Shown: piece by piece, positions 10,417 to 26,982 of the stretch
Numbering within the stretch: position 1 is the first letter of the stretch
Layout: each line of letters begins with the position of its first letter
Source of the DNA: Sphingomonas natans
GTDB taxonomy: Bacteria; Pseudomonadota; Alphaproteobacteria; Sphingomonadales; Sphingomonadaceae
Length of the DNA: 64,000 nucleotides
Reading direction: 5' to 3'
Assembly: GCF_030546695.1 (NCBI RefSeq)
Contig: NZ_JAUOTP010000001.1
Location: 496,001-560,000, forward strand
Notes under the pieces: generated by a model
Told to the model about the DNA's origin: nothing
The model's input: the letters and a program-made list of their open reading frames with translations, nothing else
The model's database searches: none
Translations under genes and position numbers: made by a program

Positions 10417-11324
10417 TCCGCCGCGCATTTGCCATGCTGTCCGTTGCGCTCGGCCTCGCGGCGGGCAGCGCCGCCGCCGCGCGGATCATGGACTGGGACG
10501 ATCTGCTCGGCCGGCCGCGCCCGAAGGCCGACGCGTCGATCGCTTATGGCCGCGATCGGCTGCAACATGTCGATCTGTGGCGGCCGCGCGGGCGAGGCCC
10601 CTTCCCCGTCGTCGTGATGATCCATGGCGGCTGCTGGCGGACCGATGTCGCGACCGCGGATATCATGGACTGGGCGGCGGACGATCTGCGCCGGCGTGGC
10701 ATCGCGGTGTGGAACGTCGAATATCGGGGTGTCGATCGGCCGGGCGGCGGCTATCCCGGCACCTTTCTCGATATCGCCGCCGGGTCCGATCTGCTGGGCC
10801 GCATCGGCGCGCGCTATGGCCTGAGGACGGACCGCGTCGTCGTGCTCGGCCATTCGGCGGGCGGGCATCTCGCGCTCTGACTGGCGGCGCGGCGCGGCAT
10901 CCCCGCGCGAAGCGCGCTGCGCGCGCCGGCCCCGCTGCGGATCGCAGGCGCGGTCAGCCTCGGCGGGCTGCCCGATCTGGAAGTCGCATCGGCACCGCCG
11001 GGCGACACGTGCGGCCCGAACGCCGTCGCCCGCCTCATCGATGGCGGAACGGGGCGGCGCGATCTGTTCACGGACACGTCGCCGGCGCGGCTTGCCCAGC
11101 CCGCCATCCCGATCCGGCTGATCAACGGCGAACTGGACGGCATCGCACCGCCGGCCGCGGCGGAGGCCTATGTCACGCGCGTCCACAACGCCGGGATCCG
11201 CCGTATCGCTATCGAGGACGAAGCGCATGTCGAGGAAATCGCACCCGGCACGCGCAGCTGGGCGGCGGCGATCGATTTCGTGACGGAGATCGTGCAGCCG
11301 CGCGAGCGGCATCTGCCGCGATAG
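10413..11324 (+). pseudogene. Alpha/beta hydrolase interrupted by one in-frame TGA
   Basis: A signal-peptide-bearing alpha/beta hydrolase of the BD-FAE/esterase type, 303 codons long, with one in-frame TGA at 10878-10880. Upstream of the stop are the signal segment (FAMLSVALGLAAGSAAAA), the oxyanion HGG in MIHGGCW and the nucleophile motif GHSAGGHLAL. Downstream the same frame resumes as LAARRGIP and keeps the expected Asp (NGELDGIAPP) and His (DEAHVEE) of the triad, ending at a TAG. In relatives the residue after GGHLAL is often Trp, so TGG to TGA is the simplest explanation. The start overlaps the mfd stop (ATGA). A sequencing error cannot be excluded. Confidence 0.88.
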
Positions 11325-11907
11325 GCCCTAAGCGGCCGTTTTGCGGCCATTCGCGCCGATAAGCTTCGCCAAACGGCCGCAACGATTCACCTTACGAAAC
11401 GATCGAAAAGGTTTGTGACGGGAATCGACGCGGGGATGCCTCCAATGTTGGAAAGTTCCATCCCGTTAACGTCTGGCCGATCAAATAAGCCGGGAACCGC
11501 AAGCTGATTCCCGTTACCATCGGGTTACGGGAAAAAAGCCTGGCCGCGTTCGCGATGGCCATCGGCGTGGGGAAGCGCCCTTCGAGGGCGACGGGGATAT
11601 CGAAAGGCGTGAAGCTCTGACGAGGGGGGTCTGATGTCGCGCGCGCTGCCAACACCATATCGCCTCGCGGCGCTCCGTGGCCGGATGTCCGGCTCCGCGT
11701 TCGGATCGCGGCGCGCCTGATCGTGAATCGCCGCACCGCCCCTTTGCTTTCGCATCGCCGGGTGGCGGCTCGTTTCCGGTCCTCGCGCTCGGGCCTCCGC
11801 GCGGCCAGCGCCGCCAACGGGGCGGTGTCGCGCAGCTCTTCGGCCCCCAGCGGCTCGATCGAATTCAATCCAACCCAGCCGGGTGTCGGCAGCGGAGAAT
11901 GACTGTC
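11325..11907 (+). promoter_or_regulatory. 583-base non-coding leader upstream of the M20-lipoprotein/ABC operon
   Basis: No convincing gene lies here. The left 200 bases are less GC-rich than their surroundings. They hold related motifs: GACGGGAATC at 11417, TCCCGTTAAC at 11461, TCCCGTTACC at 11509 and the inverted form GGTTACGGGA at 11523. The last two form a hairpin (11510-11531) followed by six A. A 28-codon reading frame with a purine-rich site (GAGGGGGG) runs 11634-11720 but resembles nothing known. This stretch probably holds the promoter and an untranslated leader for the 14-kb downstream unit; that role is inference. Confidence 0.4.
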
Positions 11908-13563
11908 ATGACCACGACTCCACGCATGAAGACGATCTCGAGGATCGCCGGCACGGCGGCCCTGGCCCTCGCGCTCGCCGCCTGCGGCAAGAGCGGCGAC
12001 GGCGCCAACACGACGACCGCGAGCGCCGAGAGCGCCGGACCGAAACTCGGCATCCGCCCGAGCGGTGACGAGACGGTCGGCCCCGACATGTCGAAGATCA
12101 AAAATGCCGACCTCCCCAAGGTGTTCGACTATATCGACAAGCATATCGACGAGCATGTCGTGAACTTGCAGAAGTGGATCCAGCAGCCGTCGATTTCGAA
12201 TACCGGCGAAGGTATTCAGGAATCGGCCGAAATGGTGAAGGGTTTCCTTGATCAGCTCGGCTGCCAGAAGACGCAGGTCTTCGATGTCGGCAAGACCAAA
12301 TATGGCACGCAGGGCAATCCGGTCGTCTACGGCAAGTGCGACGAGGGGGCGAAGAAGACGCTGATCGTCTATTGGCAAGGCGATACGATGCCGGTGACGC
12401 AGCCGGATCTGTGGAAGGCGCCGCCGTTCGAGGGTCGCCTCGTCGAGCAGGCCCCGTTCAAGAAGGTGCTGATCGGCCGAGGCGCGATCAACTCCAAGGG
12501 CCCGGAGATGACCTTCCTCAACGCGCTCATGTCGATCAAGGCAGTGACGGGGAAGCTGCCCGTAAATCTGATCTTCGTCGTCGAGCATGACGAGGAGCGG
12601 ATGGATATCGGCCTTAACAAGTTCATGACCACGCACATGGACATGTTCAAGGGCGCCGACGGCGTCTGGGGCGGCGGCGGTTCGGAGGGCTGCGTGTTCT
12701 TCGAGCTTAAGACGAGCGGCAAGAGCTGGGGTCGCGGCCCGGTCTATTCGGACATCCATGGCGGCAACAAGCGCTCGGTGGATTCGCCGGCCTGGCGCCA
12801 CATCCAGATGCTCTCGAAGCTGGTATCCGAGGATGGCAACACCGTCCTGATCCCGGGCTTCTACGACAATATCGTGCCCAACAGCCCGGAGACCGAAGCG
12901 GCGCTGCGCAAGACCGCCGAGACCTATGACCTGAAGCGCGCGGCCAAGAATCTGGGCGTCGCCCGCTTCATCTCGGACGATCCCTATACGCAGCTGAAGA
13001 TGCAGCGGACGGGTACGTCGATGAACCTCGACGGCATCTGGGGCGGCAACATGTTCGCCGGCGGCTCCGGCGCGATCCTGCCCAACCAGATCATCTCCAA
13101 GCACGCTTTCCGCTACGTGCCGAACATGGACGGGCCCGATCTCGTCGCGAAGGTCCGCAAATATCTCGATCAGCTCGGCTACAAGGATGTCGAGATCAAT
13201 CTCATCGGCGATGTGCCTTGGGCGATCCGCGATCGGAACAACGATCAGGCGCGGGCGATGACCTATGCGCAGGACATCTTCACCAAGCCGCTGACGCCCG
13301 GCGGAAGCGGCGCCTATTGGCCGGCTTACCTCTTCTCCGGCAAGGAGACGAACATCGATCTGCCGATCGCGGCGGTCCGCGGCGGCACCGGCGGCAACGC
13401 GCATGCGGCCAACGAATGGTATGTCATCGAAGGCGCCGGCAAGCAGTTCGGCATGGCGACCGCCGAGAAAATGGTCGCGACCGCGCTCTATGTCTATGCT
13501 GGGCTGAACGGCCCGATCCCGGTCAAGACCGAAAAAGCCAACGGCGCGGACGGAGGGTCCTGA
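11908..13563 (+). CDS. M20-fold lipoprotein, tandem copy 1
   Basis: A 551-residue predicted outer-membrane lipoprotein with an M20 (carnosinase-like) metallopeptidase fold. A lipobox LAAC places the acylated Cys near residue 26. M20 landmarks are LWKAPPFEG (169-176), GRGAINSKGP (190-199), the Glu pair DEER (228-231), SDIHGG (281-286) and the C-terminal GGNAHAANEW (496-505). The first metal-ligand motif, GHxDxxP in active M20 enzymes, reads WQGDTMP, so the His is Gln. The bridging Asp of GRGxxD reads Asn195. The Glu pair and two His remain. I chose ATG 11908, with GGAG 10 bases upstream; ATG 11899 and 11926 are alternatives. Confidence 0.87.
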   Translation: MTTTPRMKTISRIAGTAALALALAACGKSGDGANTTTASAESAGPKLGIRPSGDETVGPDMSKIKNADLPKVFDYIDKHIDEHVVNLQKWIQQPSISNTGEGIQESAEMVKGFLDQLGCQKTQVFDVGKTKYGTQGNPVVYGKCDEGAKKTLIVYWQGDTMPVTQPDLWKAPPFEGRLVEQAPFKKVLIGRGAINSKGPEMTFLNALMSIKAVTGKLPVNLIFVVEHDEERMDIGLNKFMTTHMDMFKGADGVWGGGGSEGCVFFELKTSGKSWGRGPVYSDIHGGNKRSVDSPAWRHIQMLSKLVSEDGNTVLIPGFYDNIVPNSPETEAALRKTAETYDLKRAAKNLGVARFISDDPYTQLKMQRTGTSMNLDGIWGGNMFAGGSGAILPNQIISKHAFRYVPNMDGPDLVAKVRKYLDQLGYKDVEINLIGDVPWAIRDRNNDQARAMTYAQDIFTKPLTPGGSGAYWPAYLFSGKETNIDLPIAAVRGGTGGNAHAANEWYVIEGAGKQFGMATAEKMVATALYVYAGLNGPIPVKTEKANGADGGS

Positions 13564-13565
13564 TT

Positions 13566-15203
13566 ATGAAGAAATTCGTCCCCCTCGTCTCGGCGATCAC
13601 GCTCGCCCTCGCGCTCGCCGCCTGCGGCAAGAGCGGCGGCGGCGCCAATACGACGACCGCGAGCGCCGAGACCGCCGGACCCAAGCTCGGCATCCGCCCC
13701 AGCGGTGACGAGACGATCGGTCCCGACATGGCGAAGATCAAGAATCCCGATCTTCCCAAGGTCTTCGACTATATCGACAAGAATATCGACGAACATGTCG
13801 TCAATCTGCAGAAGTGGATCCAGCAGCCCAGCATCTCGAATACCGGCGAAGGTATTCAGGAAAATGCCGAGATGGTGAAGGGCTTCCTCGATCAGCTCGG
13901 TTGCCAGAAGACGCAGGTCTTCGACGTCGGCAAGACCAAGTACGGCACGCAGGGCAATCCGGTCATCTACGGCAAGTGCGACGAGGGTGCGAAGAAGACG
14001 CTGATCGTTTACTGGCAAGGCGATACGATGCCGGTGACGCAGCCGGATCTGTGGAAGGCACCGCCGTTCGAGGGCCGGCTCGTCGAGCAGGCGCCTTTCA
14101 AAAAGGTGCTGATCGGGCGCGGCGCGACCAACTCCAAGGGTCCGGAGATGACCTTCCTGAACGCCCTGATGTCGATCAAGGCGGTGACGGGCAAGCTGCC
14201 CGTCAATCTGATCTTCGTCGTCGAGAATGACGAGGAGCGGATGGATATCGGCCTCAACAAGTTCATGACGACGCACATGGACATGTTCAAGGGCGCCGAC
14301 GGCGTCTGGGGCCCGGGCGGCTCGGAAGGCTGCGTGTTCGTCGAGCTGAAGACGAGCGGTGCCAAGTGGGGCCGCGGCCCGGTCTATTCGGACATTCACG
14401 GCGGCAACAAGCGCTCGGTCGACAGCCCGGCCTGGCGCCACATCCAGATGCTCTCGAAGCTGGTCTCGGCCGACGGCAACACCGTGCTGATCCCGGGCTT
14501 CTACGACAATCTGCTGCCGAACAGCCCGGAGACCGAGGCGGGCCTGCGCAAGACCGCCGAGACCTACGATCTGAAGAAGGCCGCCGAGCGGCTGGGCGTC
14601 GCGCGCTTCATCTCGGACGATCCCTATACGCAACTCAAGATGGCCCGCACCGGCACGTCGATGAACATCGACGGCATCTGGGGCGGTAACATGTTCGCAG
14701 GCGGATCGGGCGCGATCCTGCCCAACCAGATCATCTCGAAGCACAATTTCCGCTACATGCCCAACATGCATGGGCCGGACATCGTCGCCAAGCTGCGCAA
14801 ATATCTGGACAAGCTCGGTTATTCGGACGTCGAGATCAACCTCGTCGGCGATGTGCCGTGGGCGGTGCGCGACAGAAATAACGATCTCGCACGCGCGAAT
14901 GCCTATGCGACGGAGATCTTCACGAAGCCCGTCTCCGCGGGCGGCACGGGCGCCTACTGGCCGGCCTATCTGTTCTCGGGGCAGGAGACGAACATCGATC
15001 TGCCGATCAGCTCGGCGCGCGGCGGCACCGGCGGCAACAGCCACGCCGCCAACGAATGGTACGTCATCGAAGGCGCCGGCAAGCAGTTCGGCATGGCGAC
15101 GGCCGAGAAGATCGTCGCGACCGCGCTTTATACCTATGCGGGGCTCAACGGCCCGGTTCCGGTCAAAGAGAAGACAAGCGCCGGTGATGGAGGTGGCTCA
15201 TAA
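13566..15203 (+). CDS. M20-fold lipoprotein, tandem copy 2
   Basis: A 545-residue paralogue that is near-identical over most of its length to copy 1. It starts two bases after the copy 1 stop. The signal peptide MKKFVPLVSAITLALALAAC ends in a lipobox with Cys20. The same altered metal site is present: WQGDTMP and GRGATNSKGP, with NDEER for the Glu pair, SDIHGG, and GGNSHAANEW at the C-terminus. The high nucleotide identity to copy 1, including at synonymous sites, suggests recent duplication or gene conversion. Its TAA shares one base with the ATG of copy 3, so translation is probably coupled. The substrate is unknown. Confidence 0.87.
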   Translation: MKKFVPLVSAITLALALAACGKSGGGANTTTASAETAGPKLGIRPSGDETIGPDMAKIKNPDLPKVFDYIDKNIDEHVVNLQKWIQQPSISNTGEGIQENAEMVKGFLDQLGCQKTQVFDVGKTKYGTQGNPVIYGKCDEGAKKTLIVYWQGDTMPVTQPDLWKAPPFEGRLVEQAPFKKVLIGRGATNSKGPEMTFLNALMSIKAVTGKLPVNLIFVVENDEERMDIGLNKFMTTHMDMFKGADGVWGPGGSEGCVFVELKTSGAKWGRGPVYSDIHGGNKRSVDSPAWRHIQMLSKLVSADGNTVLIPGFYDNLLPNSPETEAGLRKTAETYDLKKAAERLGVARFISDDPYTQLKMARTGTSMNIDGIWGGNMFAGGSGAILPNQIISKHNFRYMPNMHGPDIVAKLRKYLDKLGYSDVEINLVGDVPWAVRDRNNDLARANAYATEIFTKPVSAGGTGAYWPAYLFSGQETNIDLPISSARGGTGGNSHAANEWYVIEGAGKQFGMATAEKIVATALYTYAGLNGPVPVKEKTSAGDGGGS

Positions 15204-16849
15204 TGAAGTTCGTATCGCTCGTTTCGGTGATGGCCCTCGGCCTCGCTCTTTCCGCCTGCGGCAAGAGCGACGGGGGCGGCAACGCCACCGCCGCCAAGGA
15301 TAGCGCACCCAAGCTCGGCATCCGTCCCTATGGCGACGAGACCGTCAAGCCGGACATGACGAAGATCAAGAATGCCGATCTTCCGAAGGTGTTCGACTAT
15401 ATCGACAAGCATATCGACGATCATGTCGTGAACCTGCAGAAGTGGATCCAGCAGCCGTCGATCTCGAATACAGGCGAAGGTATTCAGGAATCGGCCGAGA
15501 TGGTAAAGGGCTTCTACGATCAGCTCGGCTGCCAGAAGACGCAGGTCTTCGAACCCGGCAAGACCAAGTGGGGATCGCAGGCCAATCCGGTCGTCTATGC
15601 CAAGTGCGACGAGGGCGCGAAGAAGACGCTGATCGTCTATTGGCAATATGACACGATGCCGGTGACGCAGCCCGATCTGTGGAAGGCGCCGCCGTTCGAG
15701 GGCCGCCTCGTCGAGCAGGCGCCGTTCAAGAAAGTGTTGATCGGCCGCGGAGCGACCAACTCCAAGGGTCCGGAGATGACGTTCCTCAACGCGGTCATGT
15801 CGATCAAGGCCGTCACGGGGAAGCTGCCGGTCAATCTCATCTTCGTCGCCGAGGGTGACGAGGAGCGGATGGACATCGGCCTCAACAAGTTCATGTCCGA
15901 GCATATGGACCTGTTCAAGGGCGCCGACGGCGTCTGGGGTCCGGGCGGTTCCGAAGGCTGCGTGTTCGTCGAGTTGACGACGAGTGGCAACAAATGGGGC
16001 CGCGGCCCGGATTATTCGGACATCCACGGCGCGTTCAAGCTCGCCGTCGACAGCCCGGCGTGGCGCCATATCGAGATGCTGTCGAAGCTGACCACGGATG
16101 GGGGCAACAAGGTCGCGATCCCCGGTTTCTACGACGATCTCCTTCCTCCGACGAAGGAAACCGAGGCCGGGCTGCGCAAGGCGGCAGCAGGCTATGACCT
16201 GAAGAAGGCTGCGAAGAATCTCGGCATCACCCGCTTCATCTCGGACGATCCCTATACCGTGCTCAAGATGCTGCGCACGGGCACGTCGATGAACCTCGAC
16301 GGCATCTGGGGCGGCAACATGTTCGCGGGCGGCTCTGGGGCGATCCTGCCCAACAAGATCACGTCCAAGCACAATTTCCGCTACCAGCCGAACATGACGG
16401 GGCCGGACATCGTCGCCAAGCTGCGCAAATATCTCGATCAGCTCGGCTACACGGACGTCCAGATCAACGTCGTCGGCGACGTGCCTTGGGCGATCCGCGA
16501 CCAAAATAACGATCTCGCCAAGTCGAACGCCTATAGCCGGAGCATCTTCGGCGGCAGCGGCGGCATGGCGTTCGCCGGCGGCGGCGGTGGTTACTGGCCG
16601 GCCTATGTCTTTGCAGGCAAAGAGACGAACATCGATCTGCCGATCAGCGCGGCTTATGGCGGCGCCGGCGGCAACGCGCATGCCGCCAACGAGTGGTATG
16701 CGATCGAGGGTTCGGGCAAGCAGATGGGCATGGCCAGCGGCGAGAAGCTCGTCGCGACCGCGCTCTACAGCTTCGCGGGGCTCAACGGCCCGATCGCGGC
16801 GCCCGCCCCACCCGCTCCCACCGCACAGAAGGCAGGCTCCGGATCGTGA
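15203..16849 (+). CDS. M20-fold lipoprotein, tandem copy 3
   Basis: A 548-residue paralogue beginning MKFVSLVSVMALGLALSACGK, with a lipobox Cys19. The first metal motif reads WQYDTMP and the bridging-Asp motif reads GRGATNSKGP, so both ligand changes are kept. The Glu pair is in EGDEER, closer to canonical M20 enzymes (EGxEE) than in copies 1 and 2. It is more diverged than copies 1-2: SDIHGAFKLAVDSP replaces SDIHGGNKRSVDSP, and a Gly-rich loop (FGGSGGMAFAGGGGG) is inserted near residues 450-465. The C-terminal His is retained (GGNAHAANEW). It overlaps copies 2 and 4 by one and four bases. Confidence 0.87.
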   Translation: MKFVSLVSVMALGLALSACGKSDGGGNATAAKDSAPKLGIRPYGDETVKPDMTKIKNADLPKVFDYIDKHIDDHVVNLQKWIQQPSISNTGEGIQESAEMVKGFYDQLGCQKTQVFEPGKTKWGSQANPVVYAKCDEGAKKTLIVYWQYDTMPVTQPDLWKAPPFEGRLVEQAPFKKVLIGRGATNSKGPEMTFLNAVMSIKAVTGKLPVNLIFVAEGDEERMDIGLNKFMSEHMDLFKGADGVWGPGGSEGCVFVELTTSGNKWGRGPDYSDIHGAFKLAVDSPAWRHIEMLSKLTTDGGNKVAIPGFYDDLLPPTKETEAGLRKAAAGYDLKKAAKNLGITRFISDDPYTVLKMLRTGTSMNLDGIWGGNMFAGGSGAILPNKITSKHNFRYQPNMTGPDIVAKLRKYLDQLGYTDVQINVVGDVPWAIRDQNNDLAKSNAYSRSIFGGSGGMAFAGGGGGYWPAYVFAGKETNIDLPISAAYGGAGGNAHAANEWYAIEGSGKQMGMASGEKLVATALYSFAGLNGPIAAPAPPAPTAQKAGSGS

Positions 16850-18519
16850 AGAACAAGACCGTCTCGCTCGTCTCGCTGATGACCTTGTCGCTGGCGCTCG
16901 TCGCCTGCGGCAAAGGCAGCGAAGGCGGCAACGCCACCGCCGCGCGGGAGAGCACCGCGCCCAAGCTCGGCATCCGTCCGCAGGGCGACGAGACGGTCAA
17001 GATCGACAAGGCGATGATCCACAATGCGGATCTGCCGAAGATCTACGATTATATCGACAGCCACATCGACGAGCATGTGAACAACCTGCAGAAGTGGATC
17101 CAGCAGCCGTCGATCTCGAATACCGGCGAAGGTATCCAGGAATCGGCGGAGATGGTGAAGGGCTTCTTCGACCAGCTCGGCTGCCAGAAGACGCAGGTCT
17201 ATGACGTCGGCAAGACCAAGTGGGGCCAGCAGGGCAACCCTGTCGTCTATGCCAATTGCAACGAAGGCGCGAAGAAGACGCTCGTCATCTACTGGATGTA
17301 CGATACGATGCCGGTCACCCAGCCGGATCTGTGGAAGGCGCCGCCGTTCGAAGGCCGCCTCGTCGAACAGGCGCCCTACAAGAAGGTGTTGATCGGCCGC
17401 GGCGCGGTCAACTCCAAAGGCCCCGAAATGTCGATGCTGAACGCTTTGATGTCGATCAAGGCGGTCACCGGCAAATTGCCCGTCAACCTCATCTTCGTTG
17501 CCGAGGGCGACGAGGAGCGGATGGACATCGGCTACAACAAGTTCGTTACCTCGCATCCCGAGCTGATGAAGGGCGCCGACGCGATGTACACGTTCGGCTT
17601 CCAGCAGGGCGGCTCTGGCTTCGTGCTGTCGGGCTCCGAAGGCTGCGTGTTCGTCGAGCTGACGACGAGCGGCAAGAGCTGGGGGCGCGGCCCGGTCTAT
17701 TCGGACATTCACGGCGGCAACAAGCGCTCGGTCGACAGCCCCGCCTGGCGCCACATCCAGATGCTCTCGAAGCTGACCGATGCCAGCGGCAACAAGGTGA
17801 TGATCCCCGGCTTCTACGACAATATCGTGCCGCTGACGCCCGAGAAGGATGCCGAGCTGCACGCCCAGGCCAAGGGCGTCGACATGAAGAAGGCGGCCGA
17901 GGGCCTCGGCGTCGCCCGCTTCACCTCGGACGATCCCTATGAGATGCTCAAGATGGCGCGCTACGGCACGTCGATGAACCTCGACGGCATCTGGGGCGGC
18001 AACATGTTCGCCGGCGGCTCCGGTGCGATCCTGCCCAACAAGATCACCTCGAAGCACAATTTCCGCTACGTCCCCAACATGACGGGGCCCGACATCGTCG
18101 CCAAGCTGCGCAAATATCTCGATCAGCTGGGCTACAAGGATGTCGAGATCAACATCGTCGGCGACGTGCCCTGGGCCAAGCGCAGCACGGACAACGAGAT
18201 CGGTCGCTCGGTCTACGCCGCGTTCGACCAGTTCGGCATCGGCCATGCACCGATCACGGCGATCGAGAGTATCGGCGGCGGCTATTGGCCGGCCTATCTG
18301 TTCGCCGGCAATGGCGCGCCGTTCGACATCCCGATCGTCGGCGGCATGCTCGGCAGCGGCGGCAATGCCCACGCCGCCAACGAATATTATGTCATCGAAG
18401 GTGCGGGCAAGGTCTACGGCATGGCCGGCGCCGAGAAGTCGGTCGTCGCCGTGCTCTACAATTATGCAGGTCTCAACGGCCCGATTGCCGCCACCCCGCC
18501 CCCGGCCAAGAAGAACTAG
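16846..18519 (+). CDS. M20-fold lipoprotein, tandem copy 4
   Basis: A 557-residue paralogue starting at a GTG that overlaps the copy 3 stop (GTGA). The frame is open further upstream, but only this start gives a signal peptide (VKNKTVSLVSLMTLSLALVACGK) with lipobox Cys21. The first metal motif is WMYDTMP, so the ligand His is now Met, and the bridging motif is GRGAVNSKGP. It carries a unique insertion, YTFGFQQGGSGFVLS, just before the conserved GSEGCVFVEL. Its C-terminal region differs most from the other copies (GGMLGSGGNAHAANEYY). It ends 36 bases before the ABC ATPase gene and closes the array. Confidence 0.87.
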   Translation: MKNKTVSLVSLMTLSLALVACGKGSEGGNATAARESTAPKLGIRPQGDETVKIDKAMIHNADLPKIYDYIDSHIDEHVNNLQKWIQQPSISNTGEGIQESAEMVKGFFDQLGCQKTQVYDVGKTKWGQQGNPVVYANCNEGAKKTLVIYWMYDTMPVTQPDLWKAPPFEGRLVEQAPYKKVLIGRGAVNSKGPEMSMLNALMSIKAVTGKLPVNLIFVAEGDEERMDIGYNKFVTSHPELMKGADAMYTFGFQQGGSGFVLSGSEGCVFVELTTSGKSWGRGPVYSDIHGGNKRSVDSPAWRHIQMLSKLTDASGNKVMIPGFYDNIVPLTPEKDAELHAQAKGVDMKKAAEGLGVARFTSDDPYEMLKMARYGTSMNLDGIWGGNMFAGGSGAILPNKITSKHNFRYVPNMTGPDIVAKLRKYLDQLGYKDVEINIVGDVPWAKRSTDNEIGRSVYAAFDQFGIGHAPITAIESIGGGYWPAYLFAGNGAPFDIPIVGGMLGSGGNAHAANEYYVIEGAGKVYGMAGAEKSVVAVLYNYAGLNGPIAATPPPAKKN

Positions 18520-18555
18520 GCCTCACTTTTCCTCTCCTTCCAGGCAGGTACGCTC

Positions 18556-19299
18556 ATGTCGATCATTTCACTGCAAGGGCTCAAGAAGACCTACAAATTG
18601 GGCGACAATATCGTCCAGGCACTTGCCGGGGTTACGCTCGATATCGCGCAGGGCGAATTCGTCGCGATCACCGGGCCGTCCGGTTCGGGCAAGTCGACGA
18701 TGATGCACATCCTCGGCTGCCTCGATCGCCCGACCGAGGGCAAATATATGCTCAACGGCAAGGATGTGTCGTCGCTGCCGCGCGACGAGCTCGCCGACAT
18801 CCGCAACAAGCAGATCGGCTTCGTCTTCCAGGGCTTCAATCTGCTGCCGCGCACGACCGCGGTCGAGAATGTAGAGGTGCCCCTGCTCTACACCCGCCCG
18901 GTGATGCCGGCAGCCGAGCGGCGCGAGCGGGCGATGAAGGCGCTCACCGCGATGGGCCTGCAGGATCGTTACGATCACCATCCGAACCAGCTTTCGGGCG
19001 GCCAGCAACAGCGCGTCGCGATCGCCCGCGCGCTCGTCAACGAGCCGACTTTGATCCTGGCGGACGAGCCGACCGGTAATCTCGACACCAAGACCTCGAT
19101 CGAGGTGATGCGGATCCTGCAGGAGCTGCGCGAGGAGAAAGGCATCACGATCGTGCTGATCACGCACGAGCCCGATATCGCCGCCTACGGCACGCGCATC
19201 ATCGCGGTGCGCGACGGCAAGATCCTGTCGGACGAGCCGAACACGCCGCGCTCGACGCTCGAGATGGCGCCCGAACAGATCATGGTGACCGCGAACTGA
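18556..19299 (+). CDS. ABC transporter ATP-binding protein (MacB/LolD type)
   Basis: A 247-residue ABC ATPase of the MacB/LolD/FtsE class that drives type VII (mechanotransmission) ABC systems. It shows Walker [10 protein letters not shown] (residues 39-47), a Q-loop [11 protein letters not shown], signature LSGGQQQR, Walker [13 protein letters not shown] and an H-loop LITHE. It follows the M20 array by 36 bases and precedes three permease genes, so it is probably the sole energiser of this complex. Proteins of this class move lipoproteins, peptides or macrolides through the periplasm rather than across the inner membrane. The substrate here is unknown. Confidence 0.94.
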
Positions 19300-19315
19300 T
19301 CGGAATATCGAAGCC

Positions 19316-20974
19316 ATGATTCCGGGTCGCCATTTCGTCGTCCTCGCCTTCCAGGCGCTGCTCCGGAACCGGATGCAGACCGCGCTTGCCATGATCGGCG
19401 TGCTGGTCGGCGTCGCCGCGCTCGTGACGAGCCTCGCGCTCGGCCGCGGCGCGCAGGAATCGGTCGAGGATCAGCTGCGCGCGGCGGGCGCGAACCTGAT
19501 CGTCGTCACTGCCGGCAATTATGCCAAGGGCAAGGAGGATCGGAGCGATCCGGACGGCAATATCGGCCATACCGGCGCACTTGATCCGCGCGATCTCGCT
19601 CCCCCCTATCTGCGAACGATGCCGCCGCTTGGCGCCCGGCTCGAACAGGTCGCCCTCAACGCGCAGCCCTTCCGCATCTTCCAAGATCGCATGGCGCCGC
19701 AGGGCGCGCAGATCCTGTACCCGATGCCCTATGGCTATGTGACCAGCGACGGCGCGCTCGCCGAGCCTGCGCGCAGCCCCGCCGACGCGCTGCTGATCCC
19801 GAGCCACTTCGAGGACGATCCGCTCGCGATCCACGATCACCCGACCGCCAAGGACCGGCTCGGCGACGTGACCGCGGGCCTCGGATCGGCCGCGACGCTG
19901 ACCGTCGAGGATGCACGCGCCGTAGCCGAGCTGGCGGGCGTCCAGCATGTCGTCGCCGGCGTCCACGAAAATGCGCGCATCTTCGTCGCGAACGACAAGA
20001 CCAAGCAGTGGTTCACGCGCTACCATGGCACGGAATGGGCGCTGCCCGAGCTGCGCAGCGGCTGGTCGATGATCCATGGCCGCTTCCTCTCCAAGGAGGA
20101 TGGCGAGGAGAAGGCTCAGGTCATGGTGCTCGGCAAGGTCGTCGCCGATCGGTTGTTCGGCGAGGGCGTCAATCCCGTCGGCCAGATGACGACGATGTGG
20201 AACCAGCCGTTCAAGATCATCGGCGTCCTCTCCAGCCGCAGCTGGGCATCGTCACCCGTCGCCGGCGACGACCAGTTCGACGCCGTCTATGTCCCCGTCC
20301 AGACGATCGACGGGCTCCTCAACCTCAGCAAGCTCAACACGATCTCGCTCTCGGCGAAGTCGGTCGGCGACGTCAGCCGCCTCTCGACGCAAGTCAAACT
20401 GCTGCTGCGCAAGCGCCACAAGATCGGCGAGGAAGTCCCCGACGATTTCACCGTCACGACGATGGCGCAGCAGGCGATCGGCAAGGGCATTCCGCCGCAG
20501 CTCGCCCGCGTGATCTCGGGCAATCTGCAGGATATCGACCGGCTGACGATCGAGCAGATGTCCTCGTCGCTCAAGAAGACCAACATGATCATGCTGATCA
20601 TGCTGGCCGGCGTCGCGACGATCTCCCTGCTCGTCGGCGGCATCGGCGTGATGAACCTGCTGCTGCTTTCCGTGACGCAGCGGACGCGCGAGGTGGGCCT
20701 GCGCATCGCGCTCGGCGCGCGCCGCAGCGACATCGCGACGCAGTTCGTGCTGGAAGCGCTGCTGCTGTGCATCATCGGCGGCGTGCTGGGGATCCTGACC
20801 GGGGTGCTAGCCTCGGGGGGGCTCCAGCGCTTCTTCTCCTGGTCCGCCGTCATCTCGCCGATGTCGGCTTTCGTCTCGCTGATCGTCGCCGCTTTGCTCG
20901 GCATCGTCTTCAGCGTTTATCCCGCGCGCCGCGCCGCGCTTCTCGATCCCATCGAGGCTCTCCGCCATGAATAA
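19316..20974 (+). CDS. MacB/FtsX-type ABC permease 1
   Basis: A 552-residue permease of the MacB type. One N-terminal transmembrane helix (MIGVLVGVAALVTSLAL) is followed by a periplasmic domain of about 380 residues and three C-terminal helices of the FtsX domain (MIMLIMLAGVATISLLVGGIGVMN, then two more). The conserved cytoplasmic segment TREVGLRIALGARRSDI joins the second and third helices. It is the longest of the three permeases, mainly in the periplasmic domain. The ATG at 19316 lies 16 bases after the ATPase stop. Its 3' end overlaps the next gene by eight bases. Confidence 0.92.
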   Translation: MIPGRHFVVLAFQALLRNRMQTALAMIGVLVGVAALVTSLALGRGAQESVEDQLRAAGANLIVVTAGNYAKGKEDRSDPDGNIGHTGALDPRDLAPPYLRTMPPLGARLEQVALNAQPFRIFQDRMAPQGAQILYPMPYGYVTSDGALAEPARSPADALLIPSHFEDDPLAIHDHPTAKDRLGDVTAGLGSAATLTVEDARAVAELAGVQHVVAGVHENARIFVANDKTKQWFTRYHGTEWALPELRSGWSMIHGRFLSKEDGEEKAQVMVLGKVVADRLFGEGVNPVGQMTTMWNQPFKIIGVLSSRSWASSPVAGDDQFDAVYVPVQTIDGLLNLSKLNTISLSAKSVGDVSRLSTQVKLLLRKRHKIGEEVPDDFTVTTMAQQAIGKGIPPQLARVISGNLQDIDRLTIEQMSSSLKKTNMIMLIMLAGVATISLLVGGIGVMNLLLLSVTQRTREVGLRIALGARRSDIATQFVLEALLLCIIGGVLGILTGVLASGGLQRFFSWSAVISPMSAFVSLIVAALLGIVFSVYPARRAALLDPIEALRHE

Positions 20975-21410
20975 GACGCTTCTCGCCTTCGCCGCGCTGA
21001 TCCTCGGCACGACGCCTGCGCTCGCCCATAACGGCGTCATCCACGAAGCCCCGCACGGGGGCATCATGAAGGCGACAAAGACCTCGCATCTCGAGATCGT
21101 TCTGGCGCCCCAGGGCGGCGCGCGCATCTATTTCATGGATGCCTCGGGCAAGCCCCTGCCCGCCTCGGCCGCCAGTGACGTGTCGGTCGAGATCGACCGG
21201 CCCGGCCAGAAGACCGAATATATCACGATGCGGCCCGATCCGACCGGAACGCTGTGGACCGGCAACGGCAAGCCCGCGAACGACCCGAAGAGCGTGATCC
21301 GCATCGGCAGCGTCGTGCGCGGCGAATCCGAGCTGATCGAAGTGCCGCGTTCGCAATTCCCGGTCTACGGCAAGGAAGCTCCGGCGAAGGGCAAGACCCA
21401 TGCTCACTAA
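20967..21410 (+). CDS. Small secreted His-rich protein
   Basis: A 147-residue protein with a clear signal peptide (MNKTLLAFAALILGTTPALA) that probably leaves a mature N-terminus starting HNGVIHEAPHGG. His residues near both ends (HNG, IHEAPHGG and the C-terminal KTHAH) suggest metal binding, but no named domain is certain. It resembles short periplasmic proteins found next to metal-efflux genes. It overlaps permease 1 by eight bases and permease 2 by eleven, so it is an integral part of the transporter operon and may be a periplasmic accessory of the permeases. Confidence 0.8.
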   Translation: MNKTLLAFAALILGTTPALAHNGVIHEAPHGGIMKATKTSHLEIVLAPQGGARIYFMDASGKPLPASAASDVSVEIDRPGQKTEYITMRPDPTGTLWTGNGKPANDPKSVIRIGSVVRGESELIEVPRSQFPVYGKEAPAKGKTHAH

Positions 21411-22854
21411 TCTCCGCATGGCGCTGAAGGCGCTCACGCAGAACAAGCTTCAGGCGATCCTGACCTTGCTCGGCATGAGCGTGGGCGTGGCGATGGTCGT
21501 GATCGTCTCGGGGCTCGGCCGCGGCGCGCAGCTGCGCATCGAAAGCCAGATCGAAAGCGCCGGGCCGACGCGCATCACGATCAAGTCCGGCAATTTCACG
21601 CCGTCCGCGATCGACAATAGCGGCCAGCAGGACAGCGGCGGCGGCGAGCCCTCCGAAGGCATCGCGACGACGAGCGGCGCCGGTGGTGACGGCAGCGCGA
21701 TGGCCGATCTGTCCAAGGACGAGGCGGTCCTCGATGCGCGGCGCCGCATCACAGCGCCCAAGCGGACCGAGTTCAAATCGCCGCCGACGCCGATCGACGC
21801 CGCGCAGGTCGCGGCGCTCGGCAAGCTCGACGGCGTCAAGGCAATCGCCGGGCAGATGCAGGGCAATGCGAGCCTCGATGCGAGCGCGAACCTGCCGACC
21901 ACGATCCTGCGCGTCTCGGGCTTCGATGCCGCCTGGCCCGAAATGACGGGCTGGAAGCTGCGCGAGGGCCGCATGCCGAGCGCAAGCGAGCATGACAGCG
22001 GCGCGCCGGTGATGCTCGTCAGCCCCGCCGTCGCCAAGCGGCTATGGCCCGATGCGCCGTCGGCGATCGACAAGATCGTGCCGATGAGTGGCAAGCAGGT
22101 CCGCGTCGTCGGCGTCGTCAGCGGTGCCGAGGAGAAAGGCGGCTCGGTCGTCGTGCCGCTCGTCTATATCCCGAACAAGCTGGCGGGCGAACTGCTCGGC
22201 CGCAACAGCTACGACACGGTCACGATCCGCACGCAATCGATCGGCGTGACGACCAAGGTCAACAAGGAGGTTACGGCAGAGCTGCGCCGGATGCACGGCC
22301 TTGGCGAAGGCTGGGCGAACGACTTCCGCGCAGAGACGCAGAGCAACAGCGCACTGCCCGGCATGGGCTCCGATCCGCGCCTCGCCCGCGCGGTCCATTC
22401 CAATTCGGTCGGCTTCGAGCAGACCTCGTGGGAAGAGATGGCGAAGAGCCTGCGCCAGGCAGGCCGGACCTTCGGCTATCTGCTCGGCGGTGCCGCGGCG
22501 GTGTCGCTGCTCGTCGGCGGGATCGGCGTGATGAACATCATGCTCGTCTCGGTCGCCGCGCGCACGCGCGAGATCGGGCTGCGCATGGCGCTCGGCGCGC
22601 GCACGCAGGACGTGATGATCCAGTTCCTCGTCGAGGCGGTCACGCTGGCGGCGCTCGGCGGGATCATCGGTCTCGCGCTGGGCGGGGTCGGCCTCTACGT
22701 GACCGAGCACGGCTTCCACACGGCCACCGCGATCTCGCCGATCATGCTGTTCGTCGCGGTCGCGATGGCGGCGATCACGGGCATCGTCTTCGGCTTCGGC
22801 CCCGCGCGCCGCGCCTCGCTGCTCGATCCCGTCATCGCGCTGAAATCGGAATGA
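21400..22854 (+). CDS. MacB/FtsX-type ABC permease 2
   Basis: A 484-residue MacB-like permease. The N-terminal helix GMSVGVAMVVIVSGLGRGAQ leads into the periplasmic domain, where a Ser/Gly-rich low-complexity loop (around DSGGGEPSEGIATTSGAGGDGS) is inserted. The FtsX domain has the same signature as permease 1: VSLLVGGIGVMNIMLVSVAARTREIG and LGARTQDVM. Its ATG lies inside the end of the His-rich protein gene, implying coupling. It is followed after 49 bases by a third permease. One ATPase dimer with two different permeases would be a heteromeric MacB-type complex; which pair assembles is unknown. Confidence 0.92.
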   Translation: MLTNLRMALKALTQNKLQAILTLLGMSVGVAMVVIVSGLGRGAQLRIESQIESAGPTRITIKSGNFTPSAIDNSGQQDSGGGEPSEGIATTSGAGGDGSAMADLSKDEAVLDARRRITAPKRTEFKSPPTPIDAAQVAALGKLDGVKAIAGQMQGNASLDASANLPTTILRVSGFDAAWPEMTGWKLREGRMPSASEHDSGAPVMLVSPAVAKRLWPDAPSAIDKIVPMSGKQVRVVGVVSGAEEKGGSVVVPLVYIPNKLAGELLGRNSYDTVTIRTQSIGVTTKVNKEVTAELRRMHGLGEGWANDFRAETQSNSALPGMGSDPRLARAVHSNSVGFEQTSWEEMAKSLRQAGRTFGYLLGGAAAVSLLVGGIGVMNIMLVSVAARTREIGLRMALGARTQDVMIQFLVEAVTLAALGGIIGLALGGVGLYVTEHGFHTATAISPIMLFVAVAMAAITGIVFGFGPARRASLLDPVIALKSE

Positions 22855-22903
22855 CGATGCGCTTCTTTCCTTCCACGTCTGCCTGCCCCGATCGGAGGTC
22901 TCC

Positions 22904-24238
22904 ATGTTCGCGCTGATGCCCGTCAATATCCGGCTCGCGCTCCGCTCGCTCAGCCGTAACCGGCTGCGGACGTTGCTCACCATGCTCGGCATGATCATCG
23001 GCGTCGCTGCGGTGCTCACGATGGTCGCGCTCGGCACGGGCGCGCGCGCCTCGGTCGAGGGCGAGGTCGGCTCGGCCGGCACCAAGCTGGTCTTCGTTCA
23101 CTCGGGCAATTATATCCGTGGCGGCGCGAGCGTCGGCATCGAGGAAGGCAGCGGCGGCGCCGATACGCTGACGCTGGCCGACATGAACGCGATCAAGAGC
23201 GAGGTGCAGGGCATCAAGTTCATCAGCCCGGGCCTGAGCACGCGCACGAGCGTCACGGTCGGCGCGACCAAGGCCTTCGCCAAGATCGAGGGCGTCGCCC
23301 CTGCATATTCGGATGCCTATTCCTGGGATCTAAAGCCCGGCAAGATGTTCGAGGACAATAGCAGCCAGGCGGTCGTCGGCCGCGCGCTGGCCGATCAATT
23401 GTTCGGCAAGGGCTCCAATCCGGTCGGCAAATCGATGCAGATCCGCGATCAGGTGTTCGAGATCGTCGGAGTCACCTCGGGCGAGTCCGAGGATCACAAG
23501 GACACCGTCTTCGTCCCGTACCAGAAGCTGCAGTCCGCGCTCGGCATGCAGAATATCAAGGAAATCGTCATTGCCGCCGACAAGGCCGGCGAAGCCTCGC
23601 GCATCGGCGAGGACGTGAAGAAGGTGCTCCGCAAGCGCCACGGTCAGGGCAATGGCGCGGCGAAAAGCTATCTGTCGGCGCAAGCCGGCAGCGGCACCTC
23701 GCCCGACGATTTCACGGTCGAGACGCAGGCCGCGCAGGCGCTGACCAAGGGCCTCTACACGCCCGCCGCCGCCTTCGCGCTCGCCAACCTGCCCAAGCTG
23801 GACGAGGTCAATCTGGAAGAGATGGCCGACACGCTCGATCATGCGAGCGACACGATGACGGCGCTGCTCGCCTCGATCGCCGGCGTTTCGCTGATCGTCG
23901 GCGGGATTGGCATCATGAACATCATGCTCGTCTCGGTGACCGAGCGCACCCGTGAGATCGGGCTGCGCGTCGCCAGCGGCGCGCGCTCCAGCGATGTCGC
24001 GATGCAGTTCCTGATCGAGGCTGTGACTTTGTCGGTGCTCGGCGGGCTTATCGGGCTGGTGCTGGGCCTCGTCGCCTCGCGCCTGATCGGCTGGTCGCTG
24101 GCGTGGCCGGTGAGCGTGTCGTTCGCCGCGATGGGCCTGGCGATGGGGATTGCCGCCGCGGTCGGCCTCGTCTTCGGTATCTATCCCGCGCGCCGCGCCT
24201 CGCTGCTGGATCCGATCGACGCGCTCCGCACGGAATGA
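22904..24238 (+). CDS. MacB/FtsX-type ABC permease 3
   Basis: A 444-residue MacB-like permease and the shortest of the three. It has an N-terminal helix (MLGMIIGVAAVLTMVALGTGA), a periplasmic domain, and an FtsX domain with ISLIVGG-like and GIMNIMLVSVTERTREIGLRVASGARSSDV motifs. The C-terminus ends in the family hallmark YPARRASLLDPIDALRTE, also present in permeases 1 and 2. A GGAGG site lies just before the ATG at 22904. It is encoded directly after permease 2 and 22 bases before the GTG of the anchored metallopeptidase gene, on the same strand. Confidence 0.92.
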   Translation: MFALMPVNIRLALRSLSRNRLRTLLTMLGMIIGVAAVLTMVALGTGARASVEGEVGSAGTKLVFVHSGNYIRGGASVGIEEGSGGADTLTLADMNAIKSEVQGIKFISPGLSTRTSVTVGATKAFAKIEGVAPAYSDAYSWDLKPGKMFEDNSSQAVVGRALADQLFGKGSNPVGKSMQIRDQVFEIVGVTSGESEDHKDTVFVPYQKLQSALGMQNIKEIVIAADKAGEASRIGEDVKKVLRKRHGQGNGAAKSYLSAQAGSGTSPDDFTVETQAAQALTKGLYTPAAAFALANLPKLDEVNLEEMADTLDHASDTMTALLASIAGVSLIVGGIGIMNIMLVSVTERTREIGLRVASGARSSDVAMQFLIEAVTLSVLGGLIGLVLGLVASRLIGWSLAWPVSVSFAAMGLAMGIAAAVGLVFGIYPARRASLLDPIDALRTE

Positions 24239-24260
24239 GGCCGGCGGGAGCGCGACACCG

Positions 24261-25610
24261 GTGACGGCCCCCGATCCCGCGCTCCCATCGCGCCATTCCA
24301 ATCGCCGCCTGCTGGCGCTGGCTGCGGGCGGCGCGATCCTCCTCCTCGCGCTGCTCGCGGCGCTGCGGCTCGGTATGCCCGCACCGCTCGCGGCAAGCGA
24401 TTCCGTCGATCTGCAAGCGCGCCGCTTCGTCGAGCTGGCGCTGGCGTTCGGCAAGACAGATTCGAAGGAGGTCGACAGCTATTTCGGCCCCGACGCGCTG
24501 CTGCCGAAAGAGGGCCAGCCGGCGCCGACGCTCGATGCTCTCCAGCGCGATCTTGCCGCCCTCGCTGGGGAGATTTCCGCTGAGCCGGGGCCACCCTCCC
24601 CGCGCCGCACGAGGCTCGCCAGCCGTGTGGTCCATCTCCAGGCGCTGATCGAAAGCATCCGCACGCCACATGCTTTGTCGTTCGACGAGGAGGCGAAGCG
24701 CATCTACGGAATCGATCCCGTGCCCGTGGATGCGGCGGCGATGGCGCAGGCGAAAGCCGCGCTCGGCAGGCTCCTGCCCGGTCCGGGACTACTCGCCACG
24801 CGCGTCGACGCGTTCCGCGCGCGCTACGTCATTCCCGAGGCGAAGCGCGAGGCGGTGTTCAGCCGTGCGCTCGGCGAATGCCGGCGGCGGACGCGCGCCC
24901 ACTGGAAGCTCCCCGCGACCGAACGGCTCGACGTGGAATGGACGTCGGCGGCCGAAGCCGCATGGCATCGCTATCGTGGCGGCTATCATAGCGTGCTGCA
25001 GGTCAATCCGCAGGCGGTCGCCTTCCTCGGCTCGGCGCTCGATATCGCCTGCCACGAAGGCTATCCCGGGCATCATGCCCAGTTCGTGATGCAGGATCTC
25101 GCCGCGCGTCCCGCCGGCCTGCCGATCGAGGATCGCGTCGTGATCCTTCGCTCGCCGGAGACGATGTTCCGCGAAGGCGCGGCCAATTACGGGGTCGATC
25201 TCGCTTTCCCGCCCGGCGAGCGGCTCGCGTTCGAGCGCGACGTGCTGTTTCCGCTGGCCGGATTCCGCCCGGCCGAGGCGGCGCGGTTCGAGCAGGTCCG
25301 CGCGCTGATCGACGCGCTCTCGCCCGCGACCGCGCCCATCCTGCGCGACTATCGCGACGGTCGCCTCTCCGCCGACGCCGCCGCCGCCGCGCTTCAGCGC
25401 GACGCGCTCGTCTCGAGCCCCCAGGCTCTGCTCGGCTTCGTCGATGCCCTTGGAGCATATGCGCTCGGTTACACGGTCGCGCGTGACTGGGTCGCGGCGC
25501 GCGTCGCGCGCGAGGCTGGCGGCGGCGATCGCTGGCCCGTATTAGGCCGCTACGTCGCTGCCGCCGGTATGCCACCTCTTCGTTCCGACAAGCCCAAGGA
25601 CCTGCCATGA
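24261..25610 (+). CDS. Membrane-anchored DUF885-like metallopeptidase
   Basis: A 449-residue protein with one N-terminal membrane anchor (RLLALAAGGAILLLALLAALRLG) and a periplasmic domain. The motif HEGYPGHH at residues 265-272 matches the HExxPGHH zinc site of the DUF885 family of putative metallopeptidases. A second conserved patch, FREGAANYGVDLAFP, follows about 35 residues later and may supply the third ligand. It is shorter than typical DUF885 proteins of about 600 residues. I chose the GTG at 24261, with GGAG 10 bases upstream; the longer frame overlaps permease 3. It is the only gene of this unit with an intact zinc-protease motif. Confidence 0.78.
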   Translation: MTAPDPALPSRHSNRRLLALAAGGAILLLALLAALRLGMPAPLAASDSVDLQARRFVELALAFGKTDSKEVDSYFGPDALLPKEGQPAPTLDALQRDLAALAGEISAEPGPPSPRRTRLASRVVHLQALIESIRTPHALSFDEEAKRIYGIDPVPVDAAAMAQAKAALGRLLPGPGLLATRVDAFRARYVIPEAKREAVFSRALGECRRRTRAHWKLPATERLDVEWTSAAEAAWHRYRGGYHSVLQVNPQAVAFLGSALDIACHEGYPGHHAQFVMQDLAARPAGLPIEDRVVILRSPETMFREGAANYGVDLAFPPGERLAFERDVLFPLAGFRPAEAARFEQVRALIDALSPATAPILRDYRDGRLSADAAAAALQRDALVSSPQALLGFVDALGAYALGYTVARDWVAARVAREAGGGDRWPVLGRYVAAAGMPPLRSDKPKDLP

Positions 25611-26023
25611 TCGACACGCCCCGCCCCTTCGCCCGCCGCCTCGCGCTGCTGGCGGCCCTGGCACTGGGGGCCTGTTCGTCGGGGGGCGAGGCGCCGAAGG
25701 TAACCGATCCGGTCGAGCGCGCCTTCCTCGAGGCCAATGACAAGGCGATGGGGGCGATGATGGCCGCCATGGAGGTGAAGCCGACCGGCGATGTCGATAA
25801 GGATTTCGCCTTGATGATGATCCCGCACCATCAGGGCGCGATCGACATGGCGCAGGTCCTGCTGAAATACGGCAAGAACGAGGAGCTGAAGGCGCTCGCG
25901 CGCGACATCGTTGCCAAGCAAGCCGAGGAAATCGCGCTCATGCGCCGTATAGCGGGCGACGCGCCTGCGTCTCCTGCCGAGAGCGGCAACATGGCGATGA
26001 AGCACAGCGATCATTCGATGTAG
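25607..26023 (+). CDS. DUF305 (CopM-like) lipoprotein
   Basis: A 138-residue lipoprotein (lipobox ALGAC, Cys at residue 23) with the DUF305 signature MMIPHHQGAIDMA. The family is a ferritin-like helical bundle rich in His and Met; the cyanobacterial member CopM binds copper. Further Met/His residues occur at the C-terminus (MAMKHSDHSM). Its ATG overlaps the peptidase stop (ATGA), so it is the last gene of the M20/ABC unit. This suggests metal, perhaps copper, as one theme of the operon, but that is inference. A hairpin-forming GC-rich stretch lies between it and the convergent lysR-type gene. Confidence 0.87.
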   Translation: MIDTPRPFARRLALLAALALGACSSGGEAPKVTDPVERAFLEANDKAMGAMMAAMEVKPTGDVDKDFALMMIPHHQGAIDMAQVLLKYGKNEELKALARDIVAKQAEEIALMRRIAGDAPASPAESGNMAMKHSDHSM

Positions 26024-26037
26024 CCGGGCGGGCGGCG

Positions 26038-26931
26038 TCAGCCGTCGCCCGATTTCAGCATCCGCATGAACGTTCGCGCGATCGGGGAAGGCTCGGTCCC
26101 GCGAATGAGCCAGAGGCGGCTCAACGCGCCTCCTGCGATCAGTGGCCGATAGACGACGCCATCCGCCCGCAGCGCGTTTAGCGATTGGCTGATGACGGTA
26201 ATCCCAAGCGCCGCCGCGACGAGCCCGAGCATCGAGCCGAGGCCATTAACCTCCTGAACGACGCGGACTTCGCGGCCCTCGCGCGCAAACAGCAGATCGA
26301 CCTGCTCGTTGAAGCCCGCACCCCCGTCGGCCGAAAACATGACGAAGGGCTGATCGGCGATGTCGCCGATGCTGAGCGGGCGGTTTTCCAGCGCGAGCGG
26401 ATGATCCTCGCGCAGAGCGACCAGCAAGGGCTCCTCCTGAACGAGACTGGCGATCAGCGCCGTCGGCAAGACCGGCCGATCGAGGCCGCGGATGAAGCCG
26501 AGATCGAGCTGCCCCTCGCGCAATTGGCTGAACTGCGCATCCCGCCCGAGCTCCCGCAGCGTCAGGTGGATGGCGGGATGCTCGGCGCGGAACTGCGCGA
26601 AGCTCCGCGAGACCAACGGGACGAACGGAACCGAGCTGGCGAAGCCGATCGACAACTCGCCTTCCTCGCCCTGCTGGATGCGGCGCGCGACCGCGATCGC
26701 ATGCCGCGCCTGGGCAAGCGTGCGGCGCGCTTCGACGAGGAAGATGACGCCGGCGTCGGTCAGGCGGACGCGCCGGCTCGTTCGATCGAACAACTCGATC
26801 CCGAGTTCCTCCTCGAGCGCCCGGATCTGCTGGCTCAGCGGCGGCTGCGAGATGCCGAGCTTGGCAGCGGCGCGCCCGAAGTGCAGTTCTTCCGCCACAC
26901 GGACGAAGTAGCGTAGGTGCCGAAGTTCCAT
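26038..26931 (-). CDS. LysR-family transcriptional regulator
   Basis: A 297-residue LysR-type regulator. The N-terminal winged helix-turn-helix MELRHLRYFVRVAEELHFGRAAAKLGISQPPLSQQIRALEEELG is canonical, and the effector-binding domain spans residues 90-295 (EGELSIGFASSVPFVPLVSRSF). It is transcribed away from the RND efflux operon across a 174-base AT-richer region containing a T-N11-A motif. The usual LysR logic would make it the regulator of that operon and of itself. The 3' end converges on the DUF305 gene with 14 bases between stops. The effector is unknown. Confidence 0.94.
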   Translation of the reverse strand: MELRHLRYFVRVAEELHFGRAAAKLGISQPPLSQQIRALEEELGIELFDRTSRRVRLTDAGVIFLVEARRTLAQARHAIAVARRIQQGEEGELSIGFASSVPFVPLVSRSFAQFRAEHPAIHLTLRELGRDAQFSQLREGQLDLGFIRGLDRPVLPTALIASLVQEEPLLVALREDHPLALENRPLSIGDIADQPFVMFSADGGAGFNEQVDLLFAREGREVRVVQEVNGLGSMLGLVAAALGITVISQSLNALRADGVVYRPLIAGGALSRLWLIRGTEPSPIARTFMRMLKSGDG

Positions 26932-26982
26932 GATCAGGTCGTAAAAGCTATCGATTGAGCCATATCATATATTTGAGGATCG

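Follow-up and report, generated by a model that had tools for sequence, protein, structure and literature searches.

A 64,000-nucleotide stretch of the Sphingomonas natans genome (contig NZ_JAUOTP010000001.1, positions 496,001 to 560,000 of the forward strand), here called the window, contains a run of eleven genes in which four M20-fold lipoproteins (M20a to M20d) are followed by one MacB/LolD-type ATPase, three permeases (perm1 to perm3), a small secreted protein, a DUF885-like peptidase and a DUF305 lipoprotein. The question raised by this locus is whether these parts belong to one system and, if so, what that system does. All eleven co-directional genes of the original prediction were recovered when the sequence was re-read, on a single strand and with overlaps or gaps of at most 49 bases. 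We found that the neighbourhood of the M20 and ABC genes is not a matter of chance and that the linkage is conserved. The unit belongs to the type VII (MacB-superfamily) kind of ABC system and is not a categorically new machine, and we estimate at roughly 0.4 the probability that it is a conserved type VII system of the envelope that handles peptides or metal-peptides in the periplasm. The gene set is real and apparently undescribed, and occurs in scattered Acidobacteria and Proteobacteria (Gamma and Alpha). No description of it was found among the matches listed in open PubMed Central papers, most of which were unrelated; in the available excerpts of PMC11266112, M20 is mentioned only in the reference list.

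The GTDB species collection was scanned with an alignment of the M20 proteins, using two patterns, one of which demanded Met or Gln at the first metal-ligand position and neither of which covered the Asn position described below. Of the 117 stretches that were confirmed, the best 80 yielded 74 loci, including contigs cut at their ends and several loci from one genome. Judged by their titles, the carriers were mostly Acidobacteria and Gammaproteobacteria, together with Croceicoccus, a Sphingomonas metagenome-assembled genome (MAG), a Rhizobiales genome and one locus titled Cyanobacteria; the cultured species Croceicoccus mobilis, Granulicella rosea and Parahaliea maris are represented among them. 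Module members were called by tblastn with the window proteins (>45 bits), which misses divergent members, and the locus counts given next used additional identity cut-offs of >50% for the ATPase and >35% for the permeases. Among the 62 loci with at least 1.5 kb past the last M20 gene, the ATPase was located directly after the M20 gene in 43 and a permease was found in 49. The 41 fully flanked named loci of the M20 subfamily contained permeases in 33 cases, which runs counter to the possibility, named in the original prediction as its refutation, that the M20 array and the ABC genes are rarely neighbours elsewhere; the ATPase was found in 31, the DUF885-like gene in 28 and the small protein in 23. 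In contrast, none of these four components was found within the fetched stretches of 10 control loci from the window's own order, which encode M20 paralogues of 32% to 35% identity. Of 11 paralogue places, 10 served as controls and the remaining one, at a contig end, was omitted; their flanks were 8 kb long versus 10 kb, and two of the ten had less than 3 kb on one side.

The linkage at the genome level is not undone by the 8 fully flanked loci that lack permeases: among 25 genomes selected for holding the M20 gene, a set that includes these 8, a perm1 match was present in 24; the match in G333 was weak (40% identity, 5e-62) and may be a different permease. In 21 of the 25 genomes, by our own reading, no more than 2 kb separated the best perm1 match from an M20 gene. 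The module is rare in its order and in its phylum: the M20 and perm1 genes were each detected only in the window's genome, both among 296 genomes of the order (four candidates per genome scored) and among 398 genomes of the phylum (three candidates per genome scored). The search across Sphingomonadales that had been proposed at the outset thus gave 1 of 296 genomes, and the module is not a general system there. Because just one genome was positive, little can be said about co-occurrence from these samples, except that neither gene was seen alone. A check for plasmid carriage gave 9 plasmid records with a match to M20d at E 1e-30, the best of them at 33.2% identity.

The number of M20 genes proved to be variable. 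The original prediction had put the tandem quadruplication at the centre of the system, but 24 of the 41 fully flanked loci contained a single copy, 14 contained two and 3 contained three. In the M20 tree, M20a to M20c grouped with the copies of the congener G001, Croceicoccus and the Sphingomonas MAG, next to M20d, and separate tandem duplications were seen in other lineages. The four-copy array was accordingly rejected as a defining feature, since copy number varies and the tandem copies are lineage-specific; the four copies are a local expansion and the least general feature of the unit. The same eleven-gene unit, including four M20 copies, was present in G001 (one of 6 congeners searched), and an assembly artefact is therefore unlikely. 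The number of permeases also varied: of 33 loci with permeases, 17 had two, 15 had three and 1 had four. The perm1 and perm3 clades were represented in both phyla and the perm2 clade was limited to proteobacterial carriers, while the third permease of some acidobacterial loci was nearer to perm1 or perm3. Both the M20 and the permease trees were quick trees, for which support values were not inspected. The DUF305 lipoprotein, originally counted as a part of the system, was found in only 1 of 76 other loci, that of G001. Neither this protein nor the RND pump beyond the unit is conserved with the module, and both were rejected as members.

The M20 copies are 70% to 81% identical to M20a, and each has a signal peptide and a lipobox in its translation. 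The two copies that were scanned, M20a and M20d, scored above the Pfam cut-offs for M20 and M20_dimer, and the proteins thus share both the sequence family and the dimerisation domain of metallopeptidase family M20 (carnosinase/carboxypeptidase type). They differ from it at the metal site, which we take to consist of the HxD His, the bridging Asp of GRGAxDxKG, the Glu-Glu pair and a distal His. An alignment with solved M20 enzymes indicated that the HxD His is replaced and that the bridging Asp has become Asn, and both replacements were seen in 107 of 107 sequences of the window subfamily: the first position was occupied by Met in 79 and Gln in 28, and the bridging position by Asn in all. The Glu-Glu pair (107/107), the distal His (105 of 105 readable rows) and an Arg after the Glu pair (107/107) were retained. 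The readable paralogues of 32% to 35% identity, six of which were re-read with the M20 tree, likewise have the Asn and lack His at the first position, so the altered metal site is older than the module. An ancient pair of Q-type and M-type M20 proteins was considered and not supported, since the tree implies at least 6 changes at the Met/Gln position.

Judged from these residues, the standard two-zinc chemistry has probably been lost, with one-metal or other chemistry possible, and because of this loss the M20 lipoproteins most likely bind a peptide-like ligand rather than cleave it by the standard mechanism. A strict lipobox was identified in 69 of 95 M20 proteins, with Asp at position +2 in only 2 of the 69; 4 additional proteins had no anchor motif. 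Among the 26 proteins failing the strict pattern, 24 had a Cys after a hydrophobic stretch by eye and two were incomplete. In a separate observation, the M20 array (12001-18000) had a G+C fraction of 0.615 to 0.632, compared with 0.64 to 0.71 in nearly all of the remaining window, and a strong AT skew.

The type VII assignment is carried by the ABC genes. Pfam identified a single ABC ATPase, and all three permeases scored above the cut-offs for MacB_PCD and FtsX; perm2 and perm3 are 33% and 42% identical to perm1. The ATPase, which has Walker and signature motifs in its translation, had MacB and LolD as its top NCBIfam models, both below the equivalog cut-offs. Permeases with MacB_PCD and FtsX domains, encoded alongside a MacB/LolD-type ATPase, place the unit in the MacB superfamily. 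It shares with LolCDE the presence of more than one permease and one ATPase, but it scored below the cut-offs for LolD (236.2 of 307.75 bits) and LolCE (at most 34.8 of 362.45 bits), and its accessory genes are unlike those of LolCDE. No adaptor or outer-membrane factor of the MacAB-TolC type was found among the eleven genes, nor among 25 of the 89 families listed for 74 flanking proteins of 12 loci; such genes may occur among the other 64 families. The unit is most likely not a tripartite exporter.

As for the accessory proteins, the label "DUF885-like" stood by fold, which is clear, and fell short by sequence: the PF05960 match of the window protein was below the cut-off (16.2 of 32.4 bits, E 0.012), which sets it apart from the DUF885, M32 and ACE-type peptidases, and 13 of 42 family members matched at E 0.01. 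The protein combines the DUF885 fold with a HExxPGHH motif, and the motif was intact and the catalytic residues invariant in an alignment of 42 rows (45 hits, less three short hits and L099, with the window protein added). The DUF305 protein scored 85.4 bits against the NCBIfam model CopM (cut-off 90).

No Pfam family fits the small protein, and searches with PDB sequence profiles gave no meaningful match for either it or the DUF885-like protein. A structure model (pLDDT 84.6) predicted a beta-sandwich that is nearly all beta. Foldseek returned no match under 0.001 for this model, and its VIA scores were 11.3 for DUF4426, 11.1 for the copper protein CrdA and 8.4 to 9.7 for P19, FetP, FtrA, Tp34 and HftA; absence from either list does not exclude a family. 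In an alignment of 32 rows (L073 and L079 left out), H41 and E43 were invariant and H26 was present in 29 of 30, and an H-x-E motif was shared by 9 of 9 fetched P19 proteins. The candidate that the small protein is a P19 homologue by profile was tried and not upheld: hhalign gave a probability of 0.5%, and PF10634 (P19/Tp34) had no match at E ≤10 among the 32 small proteins, in a search where the HMMER filters drop most weak matches. This hints at metal binding, perhaps of copper or iron.

Genes near the module in other loci provide further hints. In 17 of 62 loci, a TonB-receptor-like gene was encoded in the 2 kb upstream of the module and in the same orientation; two of these loci rest on short hits, and two (L051 and L060) have no nearby module ABC genes. 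These counts require similarity to the query receptors. Pfam assigned a barrel and a plug, as in a TonB receptor, to the upstream protein of L051, and OMP_b-brl_4 barrels with no Plug match to those of L062 and L059. Anywhere in the locus, a TonB-receptor-like match was seen in 31 of 62 loci versus 2 of 10 controls, in both of which it was outside the 2 kb upstream, and the window itself contains no such gene. Genes for an M20D amidohydrolase, HupE, acetamidase or gamma-glutamyltransferase are situated near the module in some loci. HupE/UreJ-like genes were close to it in L077, L079, L084, L088, L090 and L091, with acetamidase-like genes in four of these. Eight loci encode, upstream of the module and in the opposite orientation, a secreted family (L062:3066-3980 and relatives) whose examined member had no Pfam match.

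Type VII ABC proteins are described as performing mechanical work in the periplasm (PMC5985334), with LolA, EnvC and the hydrolase TesA among their partners, and YbbAP-TesA was presented in 2025 as the fourth such system characterised in Escherichia coli (PMC12646458). The closest analogues of the module are Fet, Zrg and YbbAP-TesA, all of which use MacB-type ABC machines. FetMP-FetABCDEF resembles it in pairing a periplasmic beta-sandwich metal protein (P19) with two MacB_PCD/FtsX permeases and a separate ATPase, as seen in L130. In Campylobacter jejuni, growth is impaired when fetB, fetC or fetD is deleted, and the defect is greater at low iron; a FetB-FetC heterodimer was proposed since both are needed, and it is called unclear what the FetBCD ABC proteins do in iron uptake and which substrate they handle (PMC10783030; the P19/Fet cluster is also described in PMC6083913). 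Fet differs in its FTR1 permease, FtrD and thioredoxin-like genes, none of which is among the eleven genes of the unit (nine were scanned with Pfam, the other two being M20 copies), in the lack of M20 or DUF885 matches in P19 loci, and in that the small protein of the window is not detectably homologous to P19. The Fet-type iron cluster at L130:4065-11631, read from the DNA, encodes FTR1, P19, FtrD, the two permeases, an ATPase and a thioredoxin-like protein; the MacB_PCD/FtsX nature of such permeases is not mentioned in the excerpts of the two Fet papers. ABC matches adjoined P19 in 2 of 10 P19 loci examined. ZrgABCDE, a zinc uptake system, likewise combines a permease described as MacB-like and an ATPase with a His-rich periplasmic protein (PMC9820375), but it has one permease compared with two to four in the module, and ZrgA has a ferredoxin-like fold compared with the modelled beta-sandwich here. 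YbbAP-TesA shares the linkage of type VII ABC genes to a periplasmic hydrolase (PMC12646458) and differs in its fused double permease (PMC5985334) and esterase, where the module has separate permeases and peptidase folds.

From the gene make-up, the conserved linkage and the motif and fold assignments, we infer complex formation, substrate, metal and direction as follows. A TonB-dependent receptor would import a peptide or peptide-bound metal, at least in carriers with an upstream receptor, and the M20-fold lipoproteins would capture this ligand. Perm1 and perm3 may form a heterodimer, in which perm2 would be a substitute or additional subunit, and the machine, driven by one ATPase, would spend ATP on pulling or handing over the ligand. 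The anchored DUF885-fold peptidase, with its intact zinc motif, would open the ligand, and the small His/Glu beta-sandwich protein, which may bind copper or iron, would take the metal. The proposed handling of peptides or metal-peptides in the periplasm is drawn by analogy with the Zrg and P19/Fet metal systems, and the earlier guess of a peptide or metal complex is the reading that best fits the parts and their neighbours. A bolder version, that the module represents a new class of TonB-linked uptake in which M20 lipoproteins with altered sites bind the ligand at the outer membrane and a type VII heterodimer mechanically strips off the peptide or peptide-bound metal or passes it to a peptidase and a copper/iron-type carrier, with no export, seems to us doubtful. 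One observation lowers our estimate for the main explanation: in the small protein, the proposed site includes a Met at position 36, present in 27 of 32 sequences, but the window's own protein has Ala there and its Met at 34.

The same parts could instead constitute a machine that presents substrates to a hydrolase, in which the permeases would pull an amphipathic peptide or acyl-peptide from the inner membrane and present it for cleavage to a docked peptidase, with metals being incidental; this peptidase would be either the DUF885-fold protein or, by its non-standard site, an M20 protein. The pairing in YbbAP-TesA is a precedent (PMC12646458), and the invariant catalytic residues of the DUF885-like proteins, the presence of their gene in more than half of the fully flanked loci (28 of 41) and the amidohydrolase, gamma-glutamyltransferase and acetamidase genes nearby in some loci are all consistent with it. 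We nevertheless consider it rather unlikely, as the copper-protein-like component and the upstream receptors would be unexplained and the orientation of the DUF885-like gene is reversed in 13 of 45 loci. A Lol-like role would account for the combination of different permeases with a separate ATPase, as in LolCDE (PMC5985334), and for the M20 proteins being lipoproteins that rarely have Asp at +2, and Aat is a composite, partly Lol-like system able to serve one lipoprotein (PMC7943197). The ATPase and permeases are however far below the LolD and LolCE cut-offs, M20 genes lack adjacent permeases in 8 of 41 loci (even if nearly all genomes examined hold a perm1 match somewhere), and the peptidase and small protein would have no explanation, which makes this role quite unlikely. 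Defence, finally, could mean that a toxic peptide is extracted from the membrane in the manner of MacB/BceAB and destroyed by the peptidase, as some MacB relatives remove such peptides (PMC5985334), or that copper is detoxified in the periplasm, in line with the adjoining DUF305/CopM-like gene and RND pump in this genome and the resemblance of the small-protein model to the copper resistance protein CrdA. These neighbours are not conserved with the module and the adaptor and outer-membrane factor are missing from the genes and families listed above; defence is likewise quite unlikely, the least probable of these explanations.

Table 1. Genes of the eleven-gene unit, with positions in the window
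Feature	Position	Strand	Remark
M20a, M20-fold lipoprotein, Gln at first metal-ligand position	11908..13563	+	
M20b, M20-fold lipoprotein, closest to M20a on tree	13566..15203	+	
M20c, M20-fold lipoprotein; closest solved structures M20 carboxypeptidase 4mmo and carnosine-type dipeptidases	15203..16849	+	
M20d, M20-fold lipoprotein, Met at first metal-ligand position, copy adjoining ATPase	16846..18519	+	putative GTG start
MacB/LolD-type ABC ATPase, separate subunit	18556..19299	+	
perm1, MacB_PCD and FtsX permease, core subunit in both phyla	19316..20974	+	
Small secreted protein, invariant HxE; beta-sandwich model resembling CrdA/P19	20967..21410	+	
perm2, MacB_PCD and FtsX permease, clade in proteobacterial carriers only	21400..22854	+	
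perm3, MacB_PCD and FtsX permease, core subunit in both phyla	22904..24238	+	
Membrane-anchored DUF885-fold protein, intact HExxPGHH and downstream Glu residues	24261..25610	+	putative GTG start
DUF305/CopM-like lipoprotein, local addition, not conserved with module	25607..26023	+	

Within the unit, a GTG start of M20d at 16846 is possible and would overlap the stop of M20c, and a consensus scan found no terminator-like site at 18519-18556, where a stop of transcription had been named as evidence against the prediction. Beyond it, a divergent LysR regulator and the RND pump (26038-30291) are present in G001 and not conserved with the module elsewhere; the LysR neighbour is also found in G003, there far from mfd. 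The flanking gene mfd is present in 5 of the 6 congeners G001 to G006 (7 of 8 genomes overall), and no empty site was seen. Directly 3' of mfd, an alpha/beta hydrolase gene (10416-11340, +) has an in-frame TGA at 10878-10880, just past its GHSAGG motif, and is either a pseudogene or affected by a sequencing error.

Three findings go beyond the original prediction: the alteration of the M20 metal site, the TonB-receptor-like genes at other loci, and the resemblance of the small protein's modelled fold to copper/iron proteins. Few jobs are known for type VII ABC machines. The module adds a compact and independent case, in which the partners have peptidase folds and the carriers include cultured bacteria from soil and sea, so that the role of such machines in the periplasm becomes testable. 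It also suggests that bacteria have retained and duplicated a peptidase fold whose metal site is changed and have coupled it to an ABC motor, and, if the TonB-linked uptake were true, the module would represent a further functional type of mechanotransmission ABC machine.

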